NCBI GenBank assembly: GCA_945787615.1
Contig: CALZJI010000103.1
Span: forward strand, 1 to 33,366
DNA length: 33,366 nucleotides
Direction: 5' to 3'
From: an uncultured Chromatiaceae bacterium
GTDB taxonomy: Bacteria; Pseudomonadota; Gammaproteobacteria; JAADHS01
Under the pieces are notes generated by a model that saw only the letters and a program-made list of their open reading frames with translations, did no database searches and was not told where the DNA came from. This document shows, in pieces, positions 8,209 to 23,928 of the stretch. The position numbers were made by a program, and so were the translations under genes. Position 1 is the stretch's first letter, and every line of letters starts with the position of its first letter.

Positions 8209-9252
8209 CTACGGCACCAACGCGACGGGTGAGAGGCCGGCCTTTTCATCCAGGTTAAACATAATGTTCATGTTCTGCACCGCCTGACCGGCGGCGCCTT
8301 TTACCAAATTATCAATGACGGATAGAATCACGACGACTTCGCCATCCTGAGGTCTATGGACGGCCAGACGGCATACATTAACGCCTCTTACGGTTCGCGT
8401 TTCTGGATGTGATTCAGCCGGCAGTACGTCAACAAAAGGCTCATCGCAATACCGCTTCTCATACAATTCCTGCAAATCTACTGAGGCATTCGGTACCTGC
8501 GCGTACAACGTAGCGTGAATGCCGCGGATCATGGGTGTCAAATGAGGCACAAAAACCAATTCGACGTTGTCACCGCTGGCCTTGATAAGCCCTTGCCTAA
8601 TTTCTGGAAGATGACGGTGCCCCGAAACGGCGTACGCCTTTAAACTCTCGCTCGCTTCACACAGCAATGCCCCCAAATTCGCCGTTCGGCCGGCGCCGCT
8701 GACACCGGATTTACAATCCGCAATGAGGCTTGATGGTTTCGTTAGCCCATGCTCTATTAACGGCAGGAATCCAAGTTGGACAGCCGTTGGATAACAGCCC
8801 GGGTTGGCGATAATCCGAGCAGTGCGGATCTTGTCTCTGGCGACCTCCGGCAACCCATAAATGGCTTCCTCCAGTAGGCCCGGACAAACATGGGGCACGC
8901 CGTACCACCGCTCCCACTCGGTCGCTGACTTCAGACGAAAGTCAGCGGCTAAATCGATGATGCGCGTTCCCGCGGCAAGTAATTCCTCAGCCATTTTCAT
9001 CGCGGTACCGTTAGGGGTCGCAAAGAATACAACGTCGCAGTTTCCCAAAACTTTCGTAGCCGGTGCTGAAAATTTCAAATCAACAACGCCCCGAAGGTTT
9101 GGAAACAACGTCGAGACCGCCACGCCCTCCTCCGAACGGGAGGTAATCACAGACAACTCAACCGCCGGATGTGTGGCTAACAAACGAAGCAACTCGACCC
9201 CGGTGTAGCCAGTCCCGCCGACAATCCCAACACTAATATGCTTTGAAGTCAT
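8209..9252 (-). CDS. argC: N-acetyl-gamma-glutamyl-phosphate reductase
   Basis: Third step of arginine biosynthesis: NADPH-dependent reduction of N-acetylglutamyl phosphate to the semialdehyde, in the cytosol. It has 347 residues. The nucleotide-binding glycine-rich motif [10 protein letters not shown] is at residues 9-18 and the catalytic cysteine is C153 in [15 protein letters not shown] in the second half is the conserved histidine region. The length and start (ATG 9252) are normal for the type 1 enzyme, although no clear Shine-Dalgarno sequence is visible. No convincing ArgR box was found upstream. It is separated by 44 nt from the coiled-coil protein gene on the same strand. Confidence 0.97.
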
Positions 9253-9545: not shown

Positions 9546-10580
9546 CTATTTCTGTTGATCAACCGAAACGCCTTGCTGGGCATGTATAAAAACACGATCT
9601 ATATACGAAACCAAATCGTCTATTTGTTGGGCGGATAAGACGTTTTTCCACGCCGACATCGTCGTACCCGGCAATCCGTCCGCAATAACGCTTCTCAACC
9701 GTTGTCTCGTCATCCGCTTTTTAACACCATCGTCGGTCAAATCACGCGGGTGGGGCTGCAAGAAACTTCCTATCCAGTTTTTCCCTGTCCCATCGGCCCC
9801 ATGACAAAACGCACAATTGCTCTGGAACAGAGCTTCACCCCGTCGTTGGACATCAGTCAAGCCCTCTATCTTCGGCGCGATATCATGAACACCGAAAGGG
9901 GTTGCCGCCGAGATAGTGTCTGCGTTGCCAGCTACGTGGTCATAACCTCCCCGAGGAAATGAAATAGAACGACGATTCCAGATCCGCCCCGTATCCTCGA
10001 GGCTAGCCCTGTCATGGCAGGTAATGCAGGAATCCATAAAAAGACGTCTACCGACTTGCTGAGCAGCTGATAACGTTTCCCAAGGCGTATCCAAAGCCAA
10101 TGCTCCCAGCACAAACGGAAATGCCGCGGCAAAGCGTTCATGGTTGGGCCAACCATTTGCTGCGGTATGGTAGCGGGTGTTTACCGCGTTGCCGCCCATA
10201 AACTCGTCGCGAATAAAGTCGACTACCGCTTCGATTTCAACATCGTCTAAAATCCCCTGAAAGGCCATCATCGCCGATCCATCTTTCCCGATGGAAACCG
10301 CGCGGATCATGGACTCCCGATCCAACTCGGCCCAGGTCATAGACGTAAAATCTCGGGGTTTCGGTGACAAGAAGGAACTTGCCACGGTCTTAGCATCGCC
10401 ATTGTAACCGTGACAAAAATAACAGCGGTAATTATAAACATCTCTGCCAAGCTCGAAAGCGGTGGCTGCAACACGCCCGGCGGCAATGGTAACCGTGGAA
10501 GGTACCGTATCGCTGTTTCGATGCGGCGTTTTTTCCGGGATCGTTGTTGGTTCGTCCCCGCTAAGACTTAGCCGTCGGCT
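9546..10580 (-). CDS. Multiheme cytochrome c, C-terminal part (frame-shifted from the upstream gene)
   Basis: The minus-strand frame is open from 10592 (just after an in-frame TGA) to the stop at 9546. Three heme-binding motifs are encoded: CYFCH (10424-10410), CITCH (10028-10014) and CAFCH (9815-9801). The first lies upstream of the first usable start, a GTG at 10385; there is no ATG, GTG or TTG between it and the TGA, and no signal peptide. A c-type cytochrome must be exported before heme attachment, so this part makes sense only as a continuation of the triheme protein in the other frame. The repeat modules (PRDFT, then a G-S/T-A-MM segment) continue the same pattern. The two frames meet at a run of nine A. 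Given coordinates start at the frame junction. Confidence 0.7.
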   Translation of the reverse strand, partial: SRRLSLSGDEPTTIPEKTPHRNSDTVPSTVTIAAGRVAATAFELGRDVYNYRCYFCHGYNGDAKTVASSFLSPKPRDFTSMTWAELDRESMIRAVSIGKDGSAMMAFQGILDDVEIEAVVDFIRDEFMGGNAVNTRYHTAANGWPNHERFAAAFPFVLGALALDTPWETLSAAQQVGRRLFMDSCITCHDRASLEDTGRIWNRRSISFPRGGYDHVAGNADTISAATPFGVHDIAPKIEGLTDVQRRGEALFQSNCAFCHGADGTGKNWIGSFLQPHPRDLTDDGVKKRMTRQRLRSVIADGLPGTTMSAWKNVLSAQQIDDLVSYIDRVFIHAQQGVSVDQQK

Positions 10581-10588
10581 TTTTTTTT
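10560..10588 (-). promoter_or_regulatory. A9 slippery run at the junction of the two cytochrome frames
   Basis: On the minus strand nine A (10588-10580) encode Lys-Lys-Lys near the end of the upstream frame. A -1 shift here, or one extra A in DNA or RNA, joins the two frames into a protein of about 731 residues. Seven nt after the run a small stem GCTAA-GTC-TTAGC (10572-10560) contains the upstream TAA stop. A homopolymer A run fits the X-XXY-YYZ slippage rule, and similar A-rich sites support programmed frameshifting in dnaX. A sequencing or mutational indel is the alternative. Confidence 0.55.
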
Positions 10589-11740
10589 CTCCTCAACCGA
10601 TGAACTCGTGGGGACGTCGCCACCTTCCTCTGGCGAAATAAAAGCTTGAAAAACGAATTCCGCGACATTAGCAATTTGTTGCGCATCGAGCACCTTATTC
10701 CACGCGGCCATAACGGTGCCTTGCTTACCGAAACTGATGGCGTGGAACAATGCTGGCCGGTTCAATACCCGCCGTGAATCCGGGTGCACGAAATTGCGTG
10801 GCTTGGGGCGTATAAACCCTGCTCTCGGCCCGTTGCCATCACCCTGCTCTCCGTGACAGGTAAAACAATTATTCATGTAGAACTCGCGTCCCGCACCAAG
10901 ATCACCGACCAATCCGTCGGAAAAAGGTAACGACATATCCGCCGCAACGATTTCTCTATCGGGCTTTGCTGAAGGACTCGCTGTGGCAGCATGTCCGTGC
11001 CGGGGAGGACCCGGAATGGCCTGTTCTTTGACTTCGGTGGCACGACCTACAAACGAACTCCTCACGTAGTCGACAACCGCCTCAATCTCTTGGCGCGATA
11101 GGCGTGTCGCGAAAGACATCATCGCCGTTCCAGGACGGCCGTGCGTTACCGAACTGACCATCCGCTCACGAGACAAGTCTTCGATGGCTTGAAGCGTCGT
11201 AAAATCCCGTGGCGGCGGGTTGAGGCTGGTTTTCGTCCACATGGCGCCATTGCCGTCGTCGCCGTGACAAACAGCGCAATTACTGGTGTAGATGTTTTTA
11301 CCTAACTCCGCGGTAACCATAGCGGCGTCGAGCTGGACATCGTCCGCCACCATAAAGGCGTCGCGAACAAAACCGACAACCTGTTCTATCTCAACCGGAG
11401 TTAAGCGCGACGAAAAAGACATCATCGCCGTTCCCGGCCTCCCGTTGGAGACCGACGATATCATGCGCTCTCTAGTCAATTCTGCTTTCGCCAGCCGAGT
11501 TGTAAAATCCCGCGGCGGCGGATTCAGGCCGCGCCGCACTCGTGTCATACCGTCGCCGTTATCGCCGTGACAAACAGTACAATAATTTCGATAGATTTCC
11601 TCACCATTTGTAACCGATTCCCCGGCTTCTTCGGCGGTAACGGGAAATCCCAACACTAGCATCGAAATGAGAACCCACCGCAAGGGCAAGCCACGCCCAT
11701 GGACGGCTAGCATCTTACGTCGCACATGCATTTTTTTCAC
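10568..11740 (-). CDS. Triheme c-type cytochrome, N-terminal part of a probable hexaheme protein
   Basis: A 390-residue exported protein starting with GTG at 11740, preceded by AGGAAG. The N-terminus is basic, followed by a hydrophobic segment (about 20-35) ending near a signal peptidase site at VTAEE. Heme motifs are CTVCH (54-58), CAVCH (155-159) and CFTCH (292-296). Each is followed by an NPPPRDFT or PKPRNF element and a G-T-x-M segment that probably gives the distal methionine ligand. The modules are internal duplications; the first two are strikingly alike. The final residues run through KKK to a stop right after the A9 run, and the same module pattern resumes in the -1 frame. The role is probably periplasmic electron transfer; donor and acceptor are unknown. 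Confidence 0.85.
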   Translation of the reverse strand: MKKMHVRRKMLAVHGRGLPLRWVLISMLVLGFPVTAEEAGESVTNGEEIYRNYCTVCHGDNGDGMTRVRRGLNPPPRDFTTRLAKAELTRERMISSVSNGRPGTAMMSFSSRLTPVEIEQVVGFVRDAFMVADDVQLDAAMVTAELGKNIYTSNCAVCHGDDGNGAMWTKTSLNPPPRDFTTLQAIEDLSRERMVSSVTHGRPGTAMMSFATRLSRQEIEAVVDYVRSSFVGRATEVKEQAIPGPPRHGHAATASPSAKPDREIVAADMSLPFSDGLVGDLGAGREFYMNNCFTCHGEQGDGNGPRAGFIRPKPRNFVHPDSRRVLNRPALFHAISFGKQGTVMAAWNKVLDAQQIANVAEFVFQAFISPEEGGDVPTSSSVEEKKKADG

Positions 11741-12058
11741 AGCTTCTTCCTAGATACAGTAAACAACTAATTTACTTGTGCTTTTTTACGCAACCACAGG
11801 CATTAGGCATGCCTTGGAAAGGTCTGCCGACACAAATGCACCGCAAACAGGCATCATATCAAAATCGCTGCTTTGTCGCGGCATTTATACATGTGTTAAT
11901 CTTTGTATAAATAAAGTCCAAAGGTTTACAATAAAGGTAGGAAACCGCGACTGGGGGAGTTTTCCGCACCTTTTAAGGACACCTAAAATATTAAGACAGA
12001 TGGTAACCCTTTGGGTTCTTTCTACGCTGTAACCACTACAACAAAAACGGATTCGTAC
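11741..12058. other. Divergent intergenic region between two cytochrome genes
   Basis: About 320 bases upstream of both the minus-strand multiheme gene and the plus-strand pentaheme gene, so it should hold promoters for both. An AT-rich stretch has a TATAAA-like -10 for the plus strand near 11905-11911 without a good -35. AGGCATGCCT (about 11809-11818) is a perfect palindrome, and AACCC-TTT-GGGTT (about 12005-12017) could form a small hairpin just before the pentaheme gene. No FNR-type TTGAT-N4-ATCAA site was seen. Confidence 0.4.
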
Positions 12059-12808
12059 GTGAAAAGGCCACTCGCTCTATTTCGTTGGACCCTGTTAGTC
12101 TGCTTAATTCTGGGTTTTGATACCGCGGCGCAAACGGGATCGATTCTCGGCACAAAACATGACTTTACAGGCCTGAATCAGCGAGTCGGCGTAGTTGCCA
12201 TGGCTACCGTTGCATTCTCGGACTACGGCTCTCCTTGTGTTTATTGCCATATCCCACCAGAGAAAGAGGGTGCCGATACGACCGAGATGGGAGGGATACC
12301 CGGCTGGAACCGATTCATTCCGGCGACGACAACCTACGATCTTTACGACAGCCGCACATTGGATAACAAAGTCAGAACCCCGAGCCCCATTAGCCTACTG
12401 TGTTTATCATGCCACGACGGTACAATGGCGGTTGATATGACAGTTTTTAAGCCGGACACCTTTAGCAGCAAAGAAGACGCAGCCCTCCATTTACGGATCA
12501 ATGGAGGTAATACGCTGATGAATTGTGGCAAGTGCCACGACGGAAAACAAGCGGCGCACAGTATCGAGATTAAACACATCGGTACGGACCTCCAAAACGA
12601 CCACCCCATTTCGATGACCTACGCCGGGCTTACCCATGCGGATCCAGATTTTCGGCCACCGGACAGCGAGTACGGTTTTGATAACGGAATAAAGCTCTAT
12701 GACGGCAAGGTTGAATGCGCAACGTGCCACAACGTCCATAACCCTGATATCAAAATACTTTTACGGGCAAGCGCCGACCGACTTTGTGAAACGTGCCATA
12801 TCAAGTAA
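12059..12808 (+). CDS. Pentaheme c-type cytochrome (doubled-CxxCH type)
   Basis: An exported multiheme cytochrome of about 249 residues. The open frame allows a TTG start at 12011, but GTG at 12059 gives a compact signal peptide (KRP, then a hydrophobic core, then DTAAQTG) and is preferred. Five heme motifs follow: CVYCH, CLSCH, CGKCH, CATCH and CETCH, the last three in the closely spaced pattern of doubled-CxxCH cytochromes. Additional histidines between motifs could serve as distal ligands, suggesting bis-His, low-potential hemes. The 3' end overlaps the NHL lipoprotein gene by 16 nt, so the two are probably translated together and may form a complex. The electron donor and acceptor are unknown. 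Confidence 0.85.
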   Translation: MKRPLALFRWTLLVCLILGFDTAAQTGSILGTKHDFTGLNQRVGVVAMATVAFSDYGSPCVYCHIPPEKEGADTTEMGGIPGWNRFIPATTTYDLYDSRTLDNKVRTPSPISLLCLSCHDGTMAVDMTVFKPDTFSSKEDAALHLRINGGNTLMNCGKCHDGKQAAHSIEIKHIGTDLQNDHPISMTYAGLTHADPDFRPPDSEYGFDNGIKLYDGKVECATCHNVHNPDIKILLRASADRLCETCHIK

Positions 12809-13908
12809 CTGCTAGCCGGTGCAACCGGGTCGCTTTTTTAATTTCACTGGTTTTAATGATATCGGGGTGCTCAACGGCGCCGCCAGAACCCGAGTTCGCC
12901 CCACCGGTGTTCCCAACGCCCCCGGCGGAGCCGCGCTTTGTTTTCGAGCGAACGTTACGCTTTAGTGACAACATCATAAAGCCCTCAACCGGTGAAAAAC
13001 TAAAACGTTTTGCCACGGGCGCGCCGAGAGAACTCAAAGGCCTCGTAAAACCTTACGATATCGCTGTACAGGACGGCCGCATCTACGTCACAGACACGGT
13101 GCAAAGCAGCGTCATTGTGTTTGATATCCCCGCAGGCCGTTATTTCGAATTTGGTAAAGAAGAGCCCGGCTCATTAACCAAACCCACTGGTATCGATATT
13201 TCCGATGAAGGCGAAGTGTTTGTGAGTGATGTTAGTGCCCAACGTGTGATGGTCTACGATCCCAACGGCCGCTTCCTTCGAGCCATCGGCGATCGAACAT
13301 TGCTGCAGCGGCCCTCAGACGTCACTGTCGACTCACGTCGACAACGCGTCTATGTGGTTGATACCGGAGGCGTAGCGAGTCAACAACATGGCGTGCAGGT
13401 TTTTGATCTCACATCCGGGCAGCATCTGCAAACCCTCGGCACACGCGGCCGAGACGAAGGCCAATTCAACCTACCGCTACAAGCGGCAGTCGCTCCTGAC
13501 GGTACGCTTTACGTTGTAGATAGCGGTAATTTTCGGATTCAAGTATTTGAACCAGACGGTACGTATAAATTTACCTTTGGCTCATTGGGCAGGCTTCCGG
13601 GGCAATTTGCCAAACCCAAAGGGATTGCGATAGACGCGGCCGGTAACATCTATGTCGTGGATACCGCCTTCGGCAACTTCCAAATCTTCAACCCGAAAGG
13701 TCAGCTGCTCCTATTCATCGGCAACCGGGGCAATGCAAGTAAACCTGCTACTTATATGCTGCCCGCCGGAATCGAAGTTGATGAACTTGGGCGCATTTAT
13801 GTCGCAGACCAATTTTTTCGTAAAATCGACATCTTTCGACCGACCGGACTGGATCCCGACTTATGGACTGTTTCAAACCAAAGCGTTGAGCAACGCGCGC
13901 AGGAATAA
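12793..13908 (+). CDS. NHL-repeat beta-propeller lipoprotein
   Basis: A 371-residue lipoprotein. The start is GTG at 12793, inside the 3' end of the pentaheme gene. A hydrophobic signal ends in the lipobox ISGC with C26 as the lipidated residue and Ser next, consistent with outer-membrane sorting. After a Pro-rich linker (about 29-50), residues from about 80 onward hold NHL-type repeats with the recurring pattern D-x-IYV-x-DT/DS and GQF-x-x-P. The number is consistent with a six-bladed propeller. Such propellers usually bind proteins or ligands. Coupling to the pentaheme cytochrome suggests it may dock or scaffold it at the outer membrane; this is inference from position. Confidence 0.85.
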   Translation: MPYQVTASRCNRVAFLISLVLMISGCSTAPPEPEFAPPVFPTPPAEPRFVFERTLRFSDNIIKPSTGEKLKRFATGAPRELKGLVKPYDIAVQDGRIYVTDTVQSSVIVFDIPAGRYFEFGKEEPGSLTKPTGIDISDEGEVFVSDVSAQRVMVYDPNGRFLRAIGDRTLLQRPSDVTVDSRRQRVYVVDTGGVASQQHGVQVFDLTSGQHLQTLGTRGRDEGQFNLPLQAAVAPDGTLYVVDSGNFRIQVFEPDGTYKFTFGSLGRLPGQFAKPKGIAIDAAGNIYVVDTAFGNFQIFNPKGQLLLFIGNRGNASKPATYMLPAGIEVDELGRIYVADQFFRKIDIFRPTGLDPDLWTVSNQSVEQRAQE

Positions 13909-13966: not shown

Positions 13967-15229
13967 CTAGCGGCGCCACACGTCAGAGCCGAACCGCGCT
14001 ACACCGCCGAAACTGCCTATCCATACGCTACCGTCCTGGGCATTGGCCATGGAGAAAACGTTATTCGCGTAGAGTCCGTCAGCAACTGTTAAGGTTTTAA
14101 ACGAACCGTCTCGTTTATTCATAGTGGCCAAGCCCTTGCTCGTGCCAGCCCACAAAGTCCCTTGGGGATCCTTGTATAGCATAAAAATGTGGTTGCCAGG
14201 CAGACCGTCAGCGGTGGTGAAGTTCTGCCATTTTTTACCGTCAAACCGTGCCAGCCCACCGCCCCAGGTACCGCACCAAACGCTCCCCTCATCATCTACT
14301 TCCAGAGATATGATGTAATTGGGGTTGTAGGCTACATCAACGCCCTCTAGGCCTTGTTCGGATTTTTGTTGAGCATGGTGTTTCGAAGCCTTCGCCGGAT
14401 CATTGGTGAATTGAATCGCCTTGCGAACGGATTCAAAAGGCGCACCCAAACCGTCATCATGCTGCCAATTCTCCCAGTCGCCATCTTTGTACCGGGCTAA
14501 TCCCGCTTCGGTCGCAAACCACATCTCGCCGTTTACACCTTCCTCTACGCCGTACACCCAAGGATTCGGCAAACCCCCACCGGTATTTTCTACCGTAAAA
14601 GTCTCCCAGCTGCCGGGATCATCGAGGTTTCCGCCGATTACGCGGTTAGCTCCGGACCACGTGGCGATCCAGAAATCTCCGTTCGATGCCAAAACGGTGT
14701 CGTAAACAAACTGGTCAGCCAAGCCTTGGGGAATGTTGTAGTTTTTCCACTTACCCGATTCCGGATCAAGCACCGACATACCGCCCCCGTAACTGCCGGC
14801 AACAATGCGGTCGCCAAACTTACTCACGTGGAATATACCGTTTGACAAGATGCCAGGGGTCGTATTGTCGAACACCGCATAGTCATCGGAAGCGGTATCG
14901 TAACGGATCACCCCTCCGGAGGTCGCTAACCAGATGCGGTCCGGTTCGGCGAATAGGCCCTTCACATTCCGGTTACCGATTTCAAAATGTGCGATACGGC
15001 CGCCAGGTGTAAAGCCCGCCTTGCCCCCAGCGCCAAGGGCACGCACCTCGGGCGCAGCCACGGTCTGCTGAATACTGCCCGACTCGACATTGCCGGCAGC
15101 GACGTCCTGACCGACACCGCCCGATTCCTGACTAGCCAGGTCCCGTTGCCCTAATTTGTAGGAAAAAACAGCGATTGCCACGGCAACGATAAGCAACACT
15201 GCGATTCCCTGAAATTTCATTGCATTCAC
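13967..15229 (-). CDS. Reg_prop-type beta-propeller protein, membrane-anchored
   Basis: About 420 residues with an N-terminal hydrophobic anchor (IAVLLIVAVAIAVF), then repeats of the two-component-regulator propeller type: a DG-L-x-N/D-x-V/I element, then a D-G-x-x-W-x-G/A-T-x-x-G-L/V-x-R stretch. The repeat number fits a seven-bladed propeller in the periplasm. In sensor proteins such propellers form the ligand-binding part, but here no kinase or other signalling domain is attached. GTG at 15229 or ATG at 15220 can start it; the latter is better spaced from GAGAG. It lies 10 nt downstream of a paralogous gene, and both carry an insertion of about 35 residues after a DGLGA motif, so they arose by tandem duplication. 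Confidence 0.82.
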   Translation of the reverse strand: MNAMKFQGIAVLLIVAVAIAVFSYKLGQRDLASQESGGVGQDVAAGNVESGSIQQTVAAPEVRALGAGGKAGFTPGGRIAHFEIGNRNVKGLFAEPDRIWLATSGGVIRYDTASDDYAVFDNTTPGILSNGIFHVSKFGDRIVAGSYGGGMSVLDPESGKWKNYNIPQGLADQFVYDTVLASNGDFWIATWSGANRVIGGNLDDPGSWETFTVENTGGGLPNPWVYGVEEGVNGEMWFATEAGLARYKDGDWENWQHDDGLGAPFESVRKAIQFTNDPAKASKHHAQQKSEQGLEGVDVAYNPNYIISLEVDDEGSVWCGTWGGGLARFDGKKWQNFTTADGLPGNHIFMLYKDPQGTLWAGTSKGLATMNKRDGSFKTLTVADGLYANNVFSMANAQDGSVWIGSFGGVARFGSDVWRR

Positions 15230-15239
15230 TCTCTACTCT

Positions 15240-16400
15240 CTATTTTTTCCGCGCTAGCCACGCCACACCGTTCTTAGTCCCAACCCAAACGCCGCCACTA
15301 TCCGTTGTCGCGATGGCGTAAACATTATTGCTCAATAACCCATCGCTATGGGTAAAAGTGTGCCAATTCTCGCCGTCGTAGCGAGACAAGCCTTTATTGG
15401 TACCAAACCAGAACACGCCGTCCTTGTCTTGCGCTACACTAAATACAACGTCACCGGCGAGACCGTCTTTTTGCGTCAAGTTATGCCACGCGCTGCCGTC
15501 AAAACGGCTCACACCCCCGCCCCAGGTTCCAACCCAGACATCGCCATTTTGCGCGACCATCACACTAAACACGTAGTTGCGATTGTAAGTCTCTTGACCG
15601 TCGCTGGTGACGCTCAAGTCATGGCGCGATCGGGTACCTAGACCCGTGTTAGTGCTAATGGGGAGGTTGCGTTCGTTGGACGCACCCAATCCATCCTTAC
15701 TGGTCCATGAATGCCAAGATTTTCCATCGAACATGGAAATTCCGCCTTCGGTTCCAAACCATACTCGTTCTTGCCTATCCACCGCGATGCCATAAACCCA
15801 CTCGTTAACCAGTTCCTCCACATAAGTCTCGAAGTCACCTTTCACCGGATTAAATCGATTAACACCGTACCATGTCCCGATCCATATCGTGCCGTCTGAC
15901 TGTTCGCCGAAGGAATAAGCCCAATAATCCGCGAGACCGTGCATGGGAAAATAGGTGCGCCAACCGCTGCCATCGTAGCTCGACACGCCCCCACCGTTGG
16001 TGCCGAACCAGCGGCCCCCTTTAGTGTCCACATGGATTGCAAATACGTATTCGTTAGCAAGCCCTTCTTTTCGTGTATAGGTATTTTTTACGTCTCGACT
16101 ACCTAGATCGACCTCTAAGACACCCACCGACGTACCGATCCAGACACTATTATTCGACGTATCGACGGCCAACGAACGCACGTATACGTCCCGACCGACG
16201 GCAAAAGCTTCGGCGACGTAATAGGGATTTGGCTCGGTCTGCTCATCTAACGCACCTTGCTTGTCTGGCTCGTCGTCTAGCGGCACTATCGCGACTTGTT
16301 TTGTCGACTGGGCTTCGACGTCATCCGTATCCGAGCTGCAGGCAACGAGACCGACACAAACGAAAATCGCGACTAAAAACAAGCCTCGCCAGCGACGCAT
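15240..16400 (-). CDS. Reg_prop-type beta-propeller lipoprotein
   Basis: A 386-residue lipoprotein: basic start MRRWR, hydrophobic core and lipobox LVAC with C21, followed by Ser-Ser, so probably outer-membrane. From about residue 75 onward it consists of Reg_prop-like blades with W-x-G-T/F-G-T-x-G-G/x-V-S-x-Y/F-D-G elements. The shared insertion after DGLGA (about residues 245-280) marks it as a paralogue of the downstream gene. The start ATG overlaps the stop of the monoheme cytochrome (TAATG), so cytochrome and propeller are translation-coupled. The ligand is unknown; a docking or sensing role toward the cytochromes is inference. Confidence 0.83.
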   Translation of the reverse strand: MRRWRGLFLVAIFVCVGLVACSSDTDDVEAQSTKQVAIVPLDDEPDKQGALDEQTEPNPYYVAEAFAVGRDVYVRSLAVDTSNNSVWIGTSVGVLEVDLGSRDVKNTYTRKEGLANEYVFAIHVDTKGGRWFGTNGGGVSSYDGSGWRTYFPMHGLADYWAYSFGEQSDGTIWIGTWYGVNRFNPVKGDFETYVEELVNEWVYGIAVDRQERVWFGTEGGISMFDGKSWHSWTSKDGLGASNERNLPISTNTGLGTRSRHDLSVTSDGQETYNRNYVFSVMVAQNGDVWVGTWGGGVSRFDGSAWHNLTQKDGLAGDVVFSVAQDKDGVFWFGTNKGLSRYDGENWHTFTHSDGLLSNNVYAIATTDSGGVWVGTKNGVAWLARKK

Positions 16401-23259: not shown

Positions 23260-23928
23260 CTATTCAATGGATATTTTTAGGGCCGCCGCCGTTGCCCACG
23301 GCGCAAACACCAACGCTAGAAACAATCCCGCGCCCAATAACGACAGATGCGCTTGCGCGCCTATGCCCGATGCCGTCGCCTCAACGGCGCCGCTGCCAAA
23401 CACCAAAACGGGTATGTATAAAGGCAGAATTAATAGCGATACTAAAACGCCGCCTCCCCGCAATCCCAAAGTGAGCGCTGCTCCGATGGCGCCAATGAGA
23501 CTTAGAATGGGGGTTCCCAAAAACAAGGCGACGACCAACACAAGCAACGCATCACCACCTAAATCAAACTGCAGTCCCAGAATAGGCGCCACGAGCACCA
23601 ACGGAATGCCCGACACCAACCAATGGGCGAGCACTTTACCCAGCACAATTACGGAAAGCGGCTGCGGGGCCAGCACCATCTGCTCAAGGGTCCCGTCCAT
23701 ATAATCGTTATAAAACAACCTTCCCAAGGACAGCATTGAGGCCAGCAGCGCCGCCACCCAAACCACCCCTGGGGCGATGGTGCGCAGCGTGTCGATCTCA
23801 GGACCCACACCCAACGGGAATAGACTCACAACAATAATAAAAAAAAACACGATGGTCAAAAAATCTGCTCGGCGGCGCATAGCCAACACCAGATCCCGCC
23901 GCAGCACTGTTCGAAACGCCGACAACAT
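23260..23928 (-). CDS. ccmB: ABC transporter permease CcmB
   Basis: 222 residues with six hydrophobic segments, the membrane subunit of the CcmAB ATPase that powers release of holo-CcmE. The conserved stretch DGTLEQMVLAPQP and the preceding LGRLFYNDY are family hallmarks. It starts 10 nt after ccmA. Confidence 0.94.
   Translation of the reverse strand: MLSAFRTVLRRDLVLAMRRRADFLTIVFFFIIVVSLFPLGVGPEIDTLRTIAPGVVWVAALLASMLSLGRLFYNDYMDGTLEQMVLAPQPLSVIVLGKVLAHWLVSGIPLVLVAPILGLQFDLGGDALLVLVVALFLGTPILSLIGAIGAALTLGLRGGGVLVSLLILPLYIPVLVFGSGAVEATASGIGAQAHLSLLGAGLFLALVFAPWATAAALKISIE

Follow-up and report, generated by a model that had tools for sequence, protein, structure and literature searches.

The window, by which we mean the whole stretch of 33,366 nucleotides that was analysed, carries on its minus strand two overlapping reading frames, each encoding three CxxCH heme motifs, that meet at a run of nine A (A9; Table 1). 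The upstream frame starts at a GTG (position 11740), encodes a signal peptide, has its CxxCH motifs at residues 54, 155 and 292, and reads through the junction as GAG GAG AAA AAA AAA GCC GAC GGC TAA. The downstream frame lies at -1 and has its motifs at residues 57, 189 and 260; a hydrophobic leader was sought in its 348 residues and none was found. Because its first potential start codon follows the first heme motif, this frame has no usable internal start. A -1 shift within A9 joins the two frames into one protein of 731 residues with six CxxCH motifs, for which we compute an apoprotein of about 80 kDa before leader removal, as against about 43 kDa for the triheme form. The modules of both halves match the Pfam families Cytochrome_CBB3 and Cytochrom_C; all NCBIfam matches, on both halves, were below cut-offs, which leaves both halves outside its named families. 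A plasmid search returned generic cytochromes only. The sequence AAGAAGAAG is a designed variant of A9 in which the run is broken.

Table 1. Features at and around the cytochrome junction in the window
Feature	Position	Strand	Remarks
0-frame ORF, exported triheme class I-type cytochrome c	10568-11740 (stop included)	minus	390 aa
Heme motifs of the upstream half	~11581-11567, 11278-11264, 10867-10853	minus	
Putative slip site, nine A (AAA AAA AAA in the 0-frame)	10580-10588	minus	A9/A10 conserved in 55 loci
0-frame stop TAA	10568-10570	minus	ends 12 nt past the A9 run
-1 frame, leaderless second triheme half	9546-10592	minus	348 aa
Heme motifs of the downstream half	~10424-10410, 10028-10014, 9815-9801	minus	
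First ATG/GTG/TTG of the -1 frame (GTG)	10383-10385	minus	3' of the first heme motif
Divergent neighbour, homologue of the OmcE filament subunit	12011-12808	plus	five CxxCH
NHL beta-propeller protein, lipoprotein-like leader	12793-13908	plus	conserved partner of the OmcE homologue
argC-like semialdehyde dehydrogenase	8209-9252	minus	conserved flank, not thought part of the system

The original prediction, made from the sequence alone, was of a probable hexaheme cytochrome split at A9. The frame break, the two halves, their coordinates and their description were confirmed: the run (10588-10580) and the open downstream frame (10592-9546) are exactly where they had been placed, the second half does lack a leader and any start before its first CxxCH (first GTG at 10385), and the -1 shift does join the frames. 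The claim that a repeated module (PRDFT plus G-T-x-M) continues across the junction held roughly, the first downstream domain having PRDFT...G-S-A-M instead. The small stem pointed out after the run (GCTAA-GTC-TTAGC, 10572-10560, minus) is present as sequence, but its role as an element is unsupported, the 60-nt fold being ordinary (z -0.71) and the stem absent from the junctions of relatives that were inspected.

The divergent neighbour matches PDB entry 7tfs nearly end to end (query 32-265, chain 13-232, E 4.9e-17); PMC12954529 gives 7TFS the name OmcE. In 18 of 20 loci with long flanks, a divergent multiheme gene and an NHL propeller gene precede the cytochrome gene, the multiheme neighbours being 55-83% identical to the multiheme protein of the window; the two exceptions are one locus cut by a contig end (L099) and one that is rearranged (L107, genome G365), where some 3 kb separate the two halves, which are on opposite strands, and where two NHL-like and three OmcE-like matches lie close by. 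Relatives with separate cytochrome genes hold homologues of the same neighbours (OmcE-like and NHL). Among the neighbours compared, we saw neither a porin nor an undecaheme gene. Beside the NHL gene of the window, positions 13967-16400 (minus) encode two adjacent Reg_prop (two-component-regulator propeller) proteins.

Using the downstream half as query, we searched genomes of the family to which the window belongs and of its order, class and phylum, together with five other orders and a GTDB-wide collection of contigs, and kept 99 distinct loci once duplicates and truncated loci had been removed. Signal peptides were judged by a hydrophobicity rule of our own, without a trained predictor; the leaders inspected appear unambiguous. 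The second half is without a signal peptide in 62 of the 99 loci, and every one of these 62 has a slip site at the junction: A9 alone (45 loci), A10 (nine), the heptamer G_GGA_AAG alone (six), A9 with G_GGA_AAG (one) or A8 with G_GGA_AAG (one). Wherever the upstream half of these site loci is readable, the second half is at -1 to it; the distance from run to stop is 4-15 nt in most relatives, and 35 of the 62, the window included, have no ATG, GTG or TTG between the site and the heme domain. Another 35 loci have no site, and their second half is a separate gene that has a start and a hydrophobic leader of its own; the remaining two (L051 and L129) have an in-frame six-heme fusion ORF. A site and a second leader never occur together in the 99 loci, and every locus has one of the three solutions. 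L051 and L129 both belong to genus g179, the rest of whose family uses A9 or A10. Two loci, L037 and L042, have long open frames that look like fusions; they are separate genes with signal peptides. In L017, where the second half is a separate gene with a leader, the first half ends AAG AAG AAG TGA (KKK, then the stop), the lysines being retained and the slip-prone codons absent.

A Fisher test of site against leader state gives 3e-27, ignoring kinship; locus counts are not counts of independent events, and most of the genomes are drafts. Mapped on a tree built from 46 downstream halves, the states require nine changes, compared with a mean of 18.9 after shuffling, indicating that the rule linking site and leader spans several transitions and not one. 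We framed this rule on the loci up to L054, and L055-L087 served as a test. Those from two site-rich orders (L055-L064) all have A9 or A10, as the rule predicts; those from a phylum-wide sample, mostly of another class (L065-L087), all have a leader and no run; and L108-L132 are also consistent with it if G_GGA_AAG, a site already noted in L033 and L040, is allowed for.

Purifying selection acts on both halves, with omega between 0.02 and 0.23 in close pairs (dS is saturated in some). The 95 overlapping A9 matches over both strands of 4.06 Mb collapse to about 64 distinct runs of nine or more A, and by our own estimate the chance of such a run on the coding strand of a given junction of about 50 nt is well below one per thousand. 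The window also has a run of nine T on the coding strand (23839-23847), inside a gene at 23260-23928 (minus) whose frame is intact and whose product is a full-length match to CcmB, of cytochrome c maturation. The frame break at the cytochrome junction is conserved, and is not an error, an indel or a pseudogene. The original prediction had left a recent indel or an assembly error as options, and these are rejected, A9 or A10 standing in the same -1 relation in 55 distinct loci that span at least 13 families. It had also named two observations that would refute it: no relative was found whose run length gives one continuous frame, and where the second gene does have a start and signal peptide, it is in precisely the relatives that lack the run.

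From this comparative evidence, and without expression data, we consider it very likely that a single gene with a single start uses a programmed frame transition to produce two exported cytochromes, one triheme and one a fused hexaheme. On an unaltered message, translation would end just past A9 and give the triheme cytochrome; for another share of the product, RNA polymerase would slip on A9 and add one extra A, and translation would continue in the -1 frame, or (less likely here) the ribosome would slip by -1 on A_AAA_AAA. The hexaheme fusion would reach the periplasm by the same signal peptide and have its hemes attached there. That slipping occurs at a useful rate in the cytochrome gene is inferred; the rate is unknown, and RNA and protein data are lacking.

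Programmed frameshifting or transcriptional slippage had been one option of the original prediction, and that option is strongly supported; the choice between the two is unresolved, with the balance towards transcription in the lineages with A runs. The A run has at least nine A wherever it is the sole site, and also in the one locus with A9 beside the heptamer, 55 loci in all (A8 occurs only beside the heptamer, in L108), and the runs fall in all three codon phases (42, 10 and 4 loci, with the A8 of L108 included). The homopolymer of about nine or more A/T expected of transcriptional slippage genes is present in these 55 loci and not in the six loci with the heptamer alone. Avoidance of such runs becomes evident at length nine in many bacteria (PMC1088944), and the main polymerase error at A/T runs is insertion of a single base, the direction that matches slippage here (PMC5574713). 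No upstream stimulator was found in the A-run loci as a group (mean z +0.13 ± 0.18); the GAGGAG of the window, a candidate Shine-Dalgarno-like stimulator, is not general among relatives. Downstream of the site, structure exceeds background slightly (z -0.71 ± 0.23, with a background of about 0) and is strong in a few loci (L009, L041 and L045). Taken together, the length of the runs (nine or more, whatever the codon phase), the direction of the shift (-1) and the absence of an upstream stimulator favour RNA polymerase slippage in the A-run lineages, and we infer that slippage there is likely to be mainly transcriptional.

The site itself has turned over within genus g73 (family f71), which forms one well-supported clade. 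Eight of its species carry G_GGA_AAG (L033, L040, L108, L109, L111, L112, L121 and L122), and L110 has A9 alone. Two of the eight carry both kinds of site: L109 has A9 and then the heptamer about 44 nt further on, and L108 has A8 and the heptamer, with a stop right after it (CCG GGA AAG TAG). The other six have no A run; their frames overlap for about 80-110 nt past the heptamer, and no start codon was found in the second frame of any of them. Seven of the eight have GGAG (GGGG in L122) 14 nt before the heptamer. In L110 the corresponding ACGACGGAG is present and the heptamer is not, and the GGAG may therefore reflect shared ancestry rather than a stimulator. We infer from sequence alone that one genus has likely swapped its A run for a site of the ribosomal type. 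The direction of this change cannot be read from the branching order, and a change from A run to heptamer is the likelier one because A9 is found in the rest of the family.

Of the explanations that compete with this account, the one that survives best is that programmed -1 ribosomal frameshifting on A_AAA_AAA is the main mechanism in the A-run lineages, the window included. In its favour, every A run holds A_AAA_AAA in the correct phase, and the A9 of L126 and L128 even includes A_AAA_AAG; the use of G_GGA_AAG in genus g73 implies that the ribosome can serve in this family, and the GGAG upstream of that heptamer and the slight excess of downstream structure point the same way. Against it, a seven-base site would be enough for the ribosome, yet runs that are the sole site are never shorter than nine, and the A-run loci as a group have no upstream stimulator. 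In E. coli a poly-A cassette gave 40% frameshifting with nine A and 10% with seven (PMC3711429), the two mechanisms not being separated. On balance we place ribosomal frameshifting well behind polymerase slippage as the main mechanism, without setting it aside.

A second alternative is that these are two ordinary overlapping genes, the second translated from an internal start or by coupling to the first stop. Overlapping frames are usual for coupled genes, and more distant relatives do have two genes; against this, more than half of the 62 site loci (the 35 noted above, the window among them) have no start codon, none of the 62 second halves has a signal peptide, and the conserved run is left unexplained. 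Hemes of the c type are attached after export, which disfavours a separate second gene without a leader. We regard the two-gene reading as very unlikely.

We give equally little credence to phase variation, in which replication slippage would toggle the second half on and off between cells. Homopolymers are mutable and both A9 and A10 occur among the relatives. Phase variation should, however, leave some genomes in the on state, and none is: all 62 site loci are out of frame by -1, and in the A10 loci the codon phase or the flank differs, compensating for the added base, such that the second half is still at -1. That none of the sampled genomes or loci has the in-frame run length at the DNA level argues against this reading, as do the species that have the heptamer and no run at all. 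Sequencing or assembly error, a recent indel or a pseudogene, which the presence of a homopolymer in a draft genome of 616 contigs might suggest, is all but excluded by the recurrence of the site in many independent assemblies, including one of just two contigs (G242, L024), and by purifying selection on both halves.

Returning to the programmed frame transition, our inference is that the tri/hexaheme cytochrome acts in the periplasm as a partner of an extracellular filament of the OmcE type; there are no data on filament formation or electron exchange, and the role of OmcE-type filaments as respiratory electron carriers is itself disputed (PMC11077965). What the hexaheme form does, and in what ratio to the triheme form it is made, is likewise inferred. 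A bolder reading has two parts, which taken jointly we regard as a toss-up: that slippage sets the triheme-to-hexaheme ratio for the OmcE-type filament, and that genus g73 exchanged RNA polymerase slippage for ribosomal frameshifting by way of intermediates with both sites. If this is true, selection keeps the recoding outcome rather than its mechanism.

Two known systems of extracellular electron transfer come closest to the neighbourhood. The neighbour of our cytochrome differs from the subunit of the Geobacter OmcE filament (PDB 7TFS) in having five CxxCH motifs and not four, and the tri/hexaheme cytochrome itself is not an OmcE homologue. The Uet pathway of Ca. Tenderia electrophaga (PMC10734462, PMC5371394) likewise combines periplasmic trihemes and NHL proteins with an extracellular multiheme cytochrome encoded close by; we rejected identity with Uet on domain type, its trihemes having Cytochrome C7 domains whereas ours match Cytochrome_CBB3/Cytochrom_C.

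As to recoding, frameshifting on G_GGA_AAG in E. coli and in the G-T genes of phages (PMC5009743) involves a heptamer identical to that of genus g73, and in the right phase; ours differs in lying in a cellular respiratory gene, in one genus only and not in the window. In dnaX (transcriptional slippage at A9 in Thermus thermophilus, and the two-ORF poly-A type; PMC3711429, PMC5009743, PMC1088944), A9 or A10 gives a long and a short product, as here, and a -1 shift is also required in several two-ORF genomes with A runs; the difference is that our product is extended by three heme domains, whereas the tau of T. thermophilus is itself a single ORF. A parallel in layout is offered by the chlD-type magnesium-chelatase genes (PMC3711429), in which two annotated genes are joined by -1 at 7-11 A and which, like our cytochrome, have fused homologues in other genomes; that protein is unrelated, and ours is exported, the alternative to recoding being a second gene with a signal peptide. 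A programmed frame transition at poly-A is of a known kind, and we found no frameshifted class I or multiheme cytochrome in the literature searched, although an unnamed cluster in a supplementary listing (GeneTack study) is possible. What the present case adds to these systems is a broadly conserved respiratory gene among the bacterial genes with strong evidence for programmed frame transition, and a six-heme set that is encoded in one of three ways: by two exported genes, by a single recoded gene or by a single fused gene. Gene callers will list its second half as a leaderless or truncated cytochrome, leading to wrong heme counts for these bacteria in surveys of extracellular electron transfer; and a genus with A-run, mixed and heptamer-only species offers a setting for asking whether transcriptional and ribosomal slippage replace each other in evolution.
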